A stretch of DNA of 64,000 nt, taken from positions 1,323,001-1,387,000 of the forward strand of contig NC_015275.1 of NCBI RefSeq assembly GCF_000178835.2, in the 5' to 3' direction. Both the position numbers and the translations under genes were made by a program. The DNA comes from Cellulosilyticum lentocellum DSM 5427 (GTDB lineage: Bacteria; Bacillota; Clostridia; Lachnospirales; Cellulosilyticaceae). Shown here piece after piece: positions 8,051-10,604 of this stretch; within the stretch, counting starts at the first letter, position 1; every line of letters begins with the position of its first letter. Below the pieces are notes generated by a model, which worked only from the letters and a program-made list of their open reading frames with translations, had not been told where the DNA came from and did not search any database.

Positions 8051-8126
8051 AGGTTGATTTAGAAGAAATATTCTGATATGATTTGCTTGTATGAAATTAA
8101 TATTTAAATAATACATAAAATAAGAA

Positions 8127-8218
8127 AAAGGGGAGTCTGTGCGACAGGCTGAGAGGAAACTAAAGTTTCGACCCATAACCTGATTCAGATCATGCTGACG
8201 TAGGGAAATATTCGAGGA
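8127..8218 (+). promoter_or_regulatory. TPP riboswitch (THI element) controlling thiC
   Basis: The canonical TPP aptamer is present: a GGGAGTCTG arm, the CTGAGAGG core at 8149-8156, a small P3a hairpin, the ACCC box, ACCTGATTCAGATCATG, and GACGTAGGGA before 8216. It lies in the leader of thiC and is followed by a terminator hairpin at 8244-8281, so it should switch transcription off when thiamine pyrophosphate is abundant. Confidence 0.95.
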
Positions 8219-8243
8219 TAGCACTTCGAAAGAAGTGTAAGTA

Positions 8244-8393: not shown

Positions 8394-9701
8394 ATGAAAT
8401 ATCATACACAAATGGAAGCCGCAAAGAAAGGTATAATCACTAAGGAAATGGAGATTGTAGCTAAAAAAGAGTATATGGAAGTAGAAAAGCTTAGGGCCTT
8501 AGTAGCAAAAGGTGAAGTGGCTATCCCATGCAACATTTATCACAAATCTCTTTCTCCAGAGGGAATTGGTACGGGTCTTAAAACCAAGATCAATGTCAAT
8601 TTGGGGATATCAGGAGATTGCAAAAACTATGAAGTAGAATTTGAAAAGGTGAAGGTGGCACTTAAGTTTGGTGTGGAAGCTATTATGGATCTTAGTAATT
8701 ATGGGAAAACAAATACCTTTCGTAAGCAACTTATTGAGATGTCTACAGCTATGATTGGTACAGTACCTATGTATGATGCTATTGGGTACTTGGAAAAAGA
8801 TTTAGTACATATTACACCACAGGATTTCTTAAAGGTCGTAGAAGCTCATGCCAAAGAGGGTGTTGACTTTATGACGATTCATGCAGGGATTAATAGACGT
8901 GCAGTAGAAGCTTTTAAACGTGAAGGACGTAAGATGAATATTGTTTCTAGAGGTGGTTCTCTCTTGTTTGCTTGGATGGAGATGACAGGAAATGAAAATC
9001 CATTTTATGAATATTATGATGACGTATTAGAAATTTTAAGACGTTATGATGTTACCATTAGTCTTGGAGATGCCTTAAGGCCAGGATGTCTAGAAGATAG
9101 TTCAGATGCAGGACAAATCGGAGAGCTTATTGAACTTGGCTATCTAACTAAGAGAGCATGGGCAAAAGACGTGCAGGTTATGGTAGAAGGCCCAGGTCAT
9201 ATGGCAATGAACGAAATAGAGGCCAATATGAAACTACAAAAACGTCTATGTCATAATGCACCTTTTTATGTATTAGGACCATTAGTAACAGATATCTTCC
9301 CCGGTTATGACCATATTACTTCAGCCATCGGTGGTGCTATAGCAGCAGCTAGTGGTGCTGATTTCTTGTGTTATGTGACACCAGCTGAACACCTAAGATT
9401 ACCGGATGTAAGTGATGTTAAAGAAGGAATCATAGCAAGTAAAATTGCAGCGCATGCAGCAGATATTGCTAAGGGCTTACCACATGCAAGAGATTTAGAT
9501 AACAAGATGGCAGAAGCAAGACAAAAGTTAGATTGGGAAGAAATGTTCGAAGTAGCTTTTGATGGAGATAAGGCTAGGGATTACTTTGAAAGTATGCCAC
9601 CAGCTGAAAAACACAGTTGTTCTATGTGCGGTAAAATGTGTGCTGTTAGAACAACCAATCGCATCTTAGAAGGTAAAACAGTGGAATTACATGAAGAGTA
9701 A
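8394..9701 (+). CDS. thiC: Phosphomethylpyrimidine synthase ThiC
   Basis: ThiC is the radical-SAM-type enzyme that converts aminoimidazole ribotide into HMP phosphate for thiamine synthesis in the cytosol. At 435 aa this is the short bacterial/archaeal form. Family blocks are all visible: [86 protein letters not shown] and [11 protein letters not shown]. The cluster-binding cysteines near the C-terminus are C409, C412 and C416 (CSMCGKMC), a C-x2-C-x3-C spacing. The ribosome site AAGGAGAG precedes ATG 8394. Transcription is under the TPP riboswitch at 8127-8218. ThiW follows after a second structured leader. Confidence 0.97.
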
Positions 9702-9796
9702 GAATGAATAATGAAATATTAGGTGTTGAGAGTGAAGAAACAAATAATCAGTGCATAACTTATTATTCATTTTAAATTTTTATATAGGGAAATAGG

Positions 9797-9855
9797 TCTG
9801 AAAAGATGAGGAAGACTAGCAAATGGAAGGGGAGCACCTTGCATTTGTTTTCAGA
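9797..9855 (+). promoter_or_regulatory. Structured hairpin element between thiC and thiW
   Basis: An outer stem TCTGAAAA (9797-9804) with TTTTCAGA (9848-9855) encloses an inner hairpin, CAAATG (9820-9825) with CATTTG (9842-9847), continued by AAGG/CCTT around a GGAGCA loop. The inner hairpin followed by TTTTC could be the thiC terminator. The closed outer stem suggests a more elaborate RNA fold. It directly precedes the TPP-like element. Confidence 0.5.
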
Positions 9856-9963
9856 AGGACAATTAAATAGCTAGGGAACTCGTGTTTCGAGGTGAGAGGA
9901 AGCTTTTAAGTTTCGACCGACCAAATGAAGCTAGTGCTGCATAGAGGCTATTTAATTGTACCT
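9856..9963 (+). promoter_or_regulatory. TPP-riboswitch-like variant in the thiW leader
   Basis: A long closing stem pairs 9856-9871 with 9947-9963 (ACAATTAAATAGC against GCTATTTAATTGT, extended by AGG/CCT). Inside, the 5' part aligns element by element with the upstream TPP riboswitch: AGGG, a short P3-like hairpin (CTCG-TGTTT-CGAG), the GTGAGAGG core, a P3a-like hairpin ending AAGTTTCGACC. The 3' arm is different: instead of ACCTGAT...ATGC...CGTAGGGA it has ACCAAATGAAGCTAGTGCT then GCATAGAGG. It therefore keeps the pyrimidine-binding arm and changes the pyrophosphate-binding arm. It lies about 100 nt before thiW. Confidence 0.6.
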
Positions 9964-10064
9964 AAGATTATCTTGTTTTTTTGAGGTTTAGAGAGTTAGG
10001 ACAATAGCCAAAGAAGGTATAAGGTCTCTAGCACTTAAATAAATCAAAAGAAAGAGGTAAGAAA

Positions 10065-10604
10065 ATGAAAACAAAAAATGCTATATTAAGAATGGTGATG
10101 CTTGCTATATTAATTGCTGTTGGCGTAGTCATTTCACCGATTTTAAGAGTAGAGGGTATGTGTCCAATGGCTCACTTTATTAATGTGGTATGTGCTGTGT
10201 TATTGGGGCCAGCAGATGCTTTTCTATGTGCTTTACTTATAGGAATCATTCGTATGCTTTTTATGGGAATTCCACCTTTAGCTTTAACAGGAGCTGTATT
10301 TGGGGCTACTTTATCAGGTGTTTTTTATAAACTTTCAAAAGGTAAAGTATTAGCAGCTGTTATTGGAGAAGTTGTTGGAACAGGTATCATTGGGGCTATA
10401 GTATCTTATCCGGTTATGACTTATATTTGGGGTAGGACAGGCCTGACTTGGTTGTTTTATGTTCCCTCTTTTATTGGAGGAACACTGATTGGAGGCACAG
10501 TGGCATTTATCTTCTTAGGAGCACTTAAAAGAATCGGCATGCTTAGTAAGGTGCAGAGGAAGCTAGAAAGAGAAGAAGATAGACGGGAAGGAATGGAAAT
10601 TTAA
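10065..10604 (+). CDS. thiW: ThiW, thiazole-type ECF transporter S component
   Basis: ThiW is the substrate-binding membrane subunit of an energy-coupling factor importer, thought to take up the thiazole precursor of thiamine; it uses shared EcfA/EcfT subunits encoded elsewhere. The 179-aa product has about five or six hydrophobic segments (for example residues 9-27, 38-62, 68-85, 92-118, 128-152) and family motifs VEGMCPMAHFINVVCAVLLGP, GIIRMLFMGIPPLALTGAVFG and SYPVMTYIWG. The basic C-terminus is cytosolic. The ribosome site AGAGGT precedes ATG 10065. It follows thiC but has its own structured leader (9797-9963), and ends at a strong terminator. Confidence 0.88.
   Translation: MKTKNAILRMVMLAILIAVGVVISPILRVEGMCPMAHFINVVCAVLLGPADAFLCALLIGIIRMLFMGIPPLALTGAVFGATLSGVFYKLSKGKVLAAVIGEVVGTGIIGAIVSYPVMTYIWGRTGLTWLFYVPSFIGGTLIGGTVAFIFLGALKRIGMLSKVQRKLEREEDRREGMEI

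Follow-up and report, generated by a model that had tools for sequence, protein, structure and literature searches.

The stretch analysed, 'the window' in what follows, comprises 64,000 nucleotides of Cellulosilyticum lentocellum DSM 5427 and contains thiC followed by thiW, a gene for a predicted thiazole transporter, with a structured leader occupying the interval between the two (Table 1). An earlier note on this DNA, made from the letters alone, had proposed that the leader harbors a variant derived from the TPP riboswitch, with a normal TPP riboswitch upstream and a thiazole transporter gene downstream; the last two are as it said, the one being the RF00059 match ahead of thiC and the other agreeing with the Pfam match to thiW. 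Two further matches to RF00059, the Rfam model of the TPP riboswitch with a gathering cut-off of 54.3 bits, are present in the same genome, one before thiM-thiE (L001) and one, at 46.7 bits and under the cut-off, before a gene for a ThiT-type thiamin transporter (L003; PF09515). A search of the host genome for ThiG yielded two short partial matches (L160 and L161, 31.4 and 29.6 bits) and none of full length, which suggests, at the level of sequence, that the host is without de novo thiazole synthesis, and it may therefore depend on thiazole salvage. A promoter scan found no promoter, and a terminator scan of 9600-10120 found a single terminator-like site, at 9601-9619, with none inside the element. 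Two near-alike tRNA genes (RF00005; 23208-23290 and 40346-40428) are 17 kb apart in the window.

Table 1. Genes, RNA elements and predicted structural parts at the thiC-thiW locus, in window coordinates
Feature	Position	Strand	Basis
thiC, upstream gene	8394..9701	+	PF01964, E 2.1e-194
thiW, predicted thiazole transporter, 179 aa	10065..10604	+	PF09512, E 1.3e-44
Ordinary TPP riboswitch of thiC	8119..8225	+	RF00059, 61 bits
P0 hairpin, loop GGAGCA (9831-9836), conserved 5' domain	9820..9847	+	R1 match 9818-9923; covariation
P1, 5' strand	9859..9872	+	14-pair helix with 9946-9959, contained in minimum-energy fold
Conserved GC.A(T)GGGA strand	9870..9877	+	kept in 22/22 copies
P3 hairpin, conserved loop GUGUUYC (9882-9888)	9879..9891	+	covariation; loop in 22/22 copies
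UGAGAG, containing UGAGA of the J3-2 T-loop	9893..9898	+	22/22 copies
P3a hairpin	9899..9914	+	covariation; in minimum-energy fold
GACCG (A47, C48, C49 apparently kept; G in place of C50 of TPP riboswitch)	9915..9919	+	ACCG in 22/22 copies
P4-like stem-loop, predicted, variable, at site of pyrophosphate arm	9925..9942	+	minimum-energy fold
P1, 3' strand	9946..9959	+	minimum-energy fold, helix scoring
Predicted hairpin UUAUCUU (9968-9974) / GAGGUAA (10054-10060), masking thiW ribosome-binding site	9968..10060	+	minimum-energy fold of 9790-10064, z -4.9

Landmarks that can be read by eye in the window copy are GTGAGA at 9892-9897, the P3 pairing of 9879-9882 with 9888-9891, the P3a hairpin and GACC at 9915-9918, and the core, the two hairpins and the ACC box described in the earlier note are accordingly there. 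The fold of the element is more stable than those of 200/200 dinucleotide shuffles (z -3.7), and the minimum-energy fold includes P1, P3a and the P4-like stem. P3 is absent from it, GGAAC (9875-9879) pairing instead with GUUUC (9884-9888), and its assignment comes from comparison across leaders rather than from the folding of a single sequence. The unit placed at 9856-9963 in the earlier note does belong to a copy of an RNA that is structured and conserved, but this RNA begins about 35 nt earlier, with the P0 hairpin.

A conserved RNA family and its genes

For the comparison 110 thiW loci were gathered, 30 from genomes of relatives including that of the window (L004-L033) and 80 from genome contigs (L044-L123). 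Homologues with covariation, for which the earlier note had advised looking, exist: in an alignment of 54 thiW leaders having the core pattern (A1), 17 of the 18 pairs show compensatory change on both sides and 97.2% of the cells pair, values matched by 0/500 shuffles and with slid structures dropping to 40-51% paired. Covarying pairs are found in every helix considered, namely 8/9 in P0, 4/4 in P3 and 5/5 in P3a. A covariance model, R1, was derived from aligned thiW leaders. Since both A1 and a larger set of 74 copies were selected by core patterns, figures for conservation are taken from an alignment of 22 copies found by R1 (A2; four rows shared with A1, and the alignment fitted to the model). 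There both-side changes are seen in 14/18 pairs (7/9 for P0), and the P0 loop GAGC, the strand GC.A(T)GGGA, the P3 loop GUGUUYC, UGAGAG and ACCG are identical throughout. By a strict pattern P0 is found in 73 of the 74 copies, the chance level being 54 in 2000 random stretches. Markedly enlarged versions of P3a occur in L092:1342-1425 and L140:1501-1629, and the retention of the core-adjacent pairs in both gives the helix extra support.

R1 scores split cleanly, with strong copies at 51.8 to 102.2 bits and the next-best matches at or below 45.2 bits. More than 50 bits was reached at 76 of the 110 thiW loci, made up of 4/30 and 72/80, the 80 being the closest thiW relatives and hence a biased set; L024 carries the motif. 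The window copy, itself in the training set, scored 81.5 bits for the match at 9818-9923. A DNA similarity search of 59 genomes returned, beyond the window itself, one match with E <0.001, a partial one (L035).

Further to the loci chosen for their thiW gene, two overlapping genome samples not selected for thiW were searched with R1, one of 391 genomes from the class and the other of 398 from the phylum. Strong matches (65.8 to 94.8 bits) numbered 18 in the class sample and 6 in that of the phylum, amounting to 22 distinct copies with that of the window included. All but one of these precede thiW, in keeping with the gene context given in the earlier note, and in 16 of the 21 thiM follows thiW; the exception (L138) precedes thiM (PF02110), followed by a thiE-like gene. 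The context of L141, which failed the gene-context pattern, was checked by tblastn. The association with genes for the supply and use of HET-P thus extends to 22/22 copies before thiW or thiM. The use before thiM, the 5' P0 hairpin and the frequent tandem with TPP riboswitches considered below are features that the earlier note did not have.

What is kept, and what is lost, of the TPP riboswitch

Kinship with the TPP riboswitch, on which the central proposal of the earlier note was built, is borne out by what R1 finds when it matches weakly. From the 55 weaker matches (<=45.2 bits) listed for the class sample 12 loci were tested, and 12/12 have an RF00059 score exceeding the cut-off at the site; in the genome of the window, R1 matches other than the element itself fall on two RF00059 riboswitches only. 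A loose TPP pattern, applied to stretches of about 330 nt (to the whole 2000-base locus for L142), picks up the weak matches at 56/56 thiW/thiC loci and at 12/12 class-sample loci, one 14-bit partial match (L091) being excluded, against a background of 3/74 strong copies and 74/2000 random 330-nt stretches. Because the weak matches tested are TPP riboswitches, the thiW element is considered to be related to them. Chance resemblance was entertained as an explanation and is ruled out by the covariation together with the presence of RF00059 riboswitches at the weak R1 matches.

In the opposite direction, the TPP model hardly recognizes the element. No Rfam family matches it in a scan of 9600-10150 at E<=10, RF00059 at its cut-off overlaps it in 0/41 thiW loci scanned from among the 74 copies, and a search of 12 relatives with RF00059 at E<=1 gave one match to an element, L075, with 25.4 bits against a cut-off of 54.3. 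The weak or partial match that had been anticipated is therefore to be had from L075 but not from the window copy.

In the structure of the Escherichia coli thiM riboswitch, as outlined in PMC3764141, U39-A43 form a T-loop that grips the pyrimidine ring and is stabilized by A41 with G18-C48 and by the G19-G42-A47 triple, with G60, C77 and G78 serving the pyrophosphate. By our own alignment the element would keep G17-G19 (to which we map the GGG of the conserved strand), U39-A43, A47, C48 and C49, and at 16-50, where the TPP riboswitch has G16-C50, a U or A appears to face G. The pocket bases UGAGAG, GGG and ACC are there in 22/22 copies, and the outer pair, 16-50, is lost. The two RNAs have in common P1, P3, P3a, the UGAGA T-loop, two G-C pairs of P2 and A47, as well as location in leaders of thiamin genes; they differ in that the element is without the P4-P5 pyrophosphate signature, has gained P0 and has a conserved P3 loop. 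The signature, CTGAT followed by GTAGGGA, is seen in 49 of 54 TPP riboswitches called by RF00059 and in 0/74 copies of the element (four have just a CTGAT-like sequence and one just a GTAGGGA-like sequence), and no counterpart of G60, C77 or G78 is recognizable. That the pyrophosphate arm is missing, as the earlier note had it, applies therefore to the copy in the window and to the others alike. Its further statement that a shorter loop takes the place of the arm is correct in part: a short stem-loop is predicted there in the window, but the replacement is variable, with Clostridium-type copies still having a stem at the site and L104 and L114 just 6 nt between CGACCG and the 3' strand of P1. 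The latter two, from Fusicatenibacter MAGs, are apparently minimal copies with no P4 stem and with a P0 that fits R1 poorly (51.8 and 58.4 bits).

Switching direction

P1, in which the strand ahead of GCGA pairs with another beyond the aptamer, was scored in long and short leaders against 300 re-pairings. The 32 long leaders have a mean helix score of 20.9 versus 15.0 (sd 0.6, maximum 16.7). For the 38 short leaders the values are 15.7 and 14.3 (sd 0.43, maximum 15.3), slightly above the control with sequences that are related, and several of them have no good P1. Nine leaders of a single clade have a P1 whose 3' strand extends as far as the Shine-Dalgarno sequence (CTTTTCGTA with TACGAAAAG before AGG); P1 of L114 is likewise directly ahead of it. 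If ligand binding stabilizes P1, the stabilized helix would mask the Shine-Dalgarno in some of the short-leader relatives, turning translation of thiW, or of thiW-thiM, OFF, and it is from this extension of P1 that we infer the OFF direction. By a reading of A1 by hand, P0 and P1 overlap by about 3 nt in that same clade of nine, and the two could consequently be rivals, with the direction reversed.

Terminators are present in 11 of the 32 long leaders, among which nothing consistent emerged as a shared antiterminator. The 5' halves of the terminators of L058, L063 and L077 can pair with the P3 loop (CGTGTTT), a possible antiterminator, though a weak candidate because the sequences are related. 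In Clostridium-type leaders, pairing of GCxAGGG with an anti-Shine-Dalgarno was looked at in 12 listed cases, of which 10, picked by hand, have x matching its partner, two of them via G-U; in the remaining two CCTCG is elsewhere (L158) or there is none (L159). As an anti-Shine-Dalgarno is constrained anyway, such an alternative pairing is only a lead.

Candidate ligands and the tandem with TPP riboswitches

What might a TPP riboswitch that has parted with its pyrophosphate arm be sensing? It is probable, in our judgment, that the element is a new riboswitch class, a TPP riboswitch minus that arm plus P0, with thiamin, thiamin monophosphate or an HMP compound as its ligand, and that it gates thiazole salvage, often adding a second input to that of a TPP riboswitch ahead of it. 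The more particular reading of a cis-regulatory riboswitch whose retained pocket accommodates the aminopyrimidine of some compound that is not TPP, with thiamin or thiamin monophosphate the most likely, is one that we favor tentatively and from the conserved bases. Retention of the pyrimidine pocket is the reason for favoring an aminopyrimidine ligand, loss of the pyrophosphate arm that for disfavoring TPP, and the OFF logic on thiazole salvage that for preferring thiamin or thiamin monophosphate. The job of the lost arm, either docking or recognition of the rest of the ligand, would then fall to P0 and the GUGUUYC loop.

The kept pocket would also suit an ON switch for HMP-PP, HMP-P or HMP, a pyrimidine precursor that accumulates when thiazole is short and would open thiW and thiM. 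Such a switch would have arrived independently at the role of the thiS motif, the HMP-PP riboswitch, which is itself an ON switch according to the account in PMC6478431, and whose gene context and tandem arrangement with TPP riboswitches those of the element resemble; moreover, in a host with thiC and only weak partial matches to ThiG, HMP-PP could signal thiazole shortage. Nevertheless, the position of P1 next to the Shine-Dalgarno, as seen in some short leaders, favors OFF, and the site that serves the pyrophosphate in the TPP class has been lost; this possibility, though the main rival, is rated as rather unlikely. As described in PMC6478431 and PMC6429828, thiS motifs, like the element, precede thiazole-related genes, thiW among them, and 20 to 30% of them sit after a TPP riboswitch. 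That the element is itself a thiS motif is ruled out by architecture: the latter is portrayed in PMC6478431 as one uninterrupted terminator hairpin with a run of U, six or more, in which the aptamer is embedded, whereas the fold of the element is branched and akin to that of the TPP class, with no terminator within it.

Were the TPP-like arm to have become a scaffold and P0 a new pocket, the ligand could be the thiazole, HET or HET-P, in feedback on uptake and phosphorylation. The association with thiW or thiM in all 22 copies would accord with this, as would the newness and invariance of the P0 and P3 loops, but every base of the pyrimidine pocket examined has been kept, needlessly for a thiazole sensor. 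A thiazole-only ligand is on that account less likely than one bearing the pyrimidine, and we regard it as quite improbable. A reduced TPP riboswitch still responding mainly to TPP, with P0 substituting for the lost arm and the tandem merely sharpening the response, can invoke kinship to the TPP class and the tandem TPP riboswitches for one ligand noted in PMC9481103; given the lack of recognizable equivalents of G60, C77 and G78 and the contrast in signature between 0/74 copies and 49/54 RF00059 matches, it is very improbable. Homology of the T-loop pocket to a proven aptamer, and confinement to the context of a single pathway, leave scant room for there being no metabolite at all, i.e. for a leader structured for protein binding or RNA stability.

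Returning to thiamin and its monophosphate as the favored ligands, a passage in PMC9481103 refers to unpublished work of the Breaker laboratory in which some RNAs classed as TPP riboswitches prefer one or other of these compounds. Like the element, these are TPP-like RNAs, and they are mentioned there, with their altered specificity, in connection with tandems. Going by how they are described, they differ from the element in that they currently count as TPP riboswitches, a class to which the Rfam model does not assign it; the variants might nonetheless include the thiW-leader family. No published description of this thiW-leader RNA was found in the literature searched, subscription papers and supplements being outside its reach.

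Of the 74 copies, 42 have a TPP pattern in the 600 nt ahead of them (four leaders had less sequence than that), as have 14 of the 21 from the genome samples in a stretch of about 320 nt. RF00059 itself matches in the 400 nt before the element at 31 of 41 loci scanned, loci that were selected in part for having such a match. Together with its upstream TPP riboswitch the element would form a two-input gate, with thiazole salvage shut when either compound is plentiful. If so, there is a further gate of this type in the vitamin B1 metabolism of anaerobic Bacillota, gut bacteria included, and an account of those thiW and thiM leaders where Rfam scans found nothing at the place of the element. Starting from a TPP riboswitch, one sensor arm has seemingly been dropped and a new domain added, and as many genomes retain a TPP riboswitch some hundreds of bases upstream the evolutionary steps are directly comparable. 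In seven cases (L093, L094, L096, L102, L105, L111 and L115) two RF00059 riboswitches and then the variant element are found upstream of thiW, and by pattern L106 and L116 seem to have the same triple arrangement.
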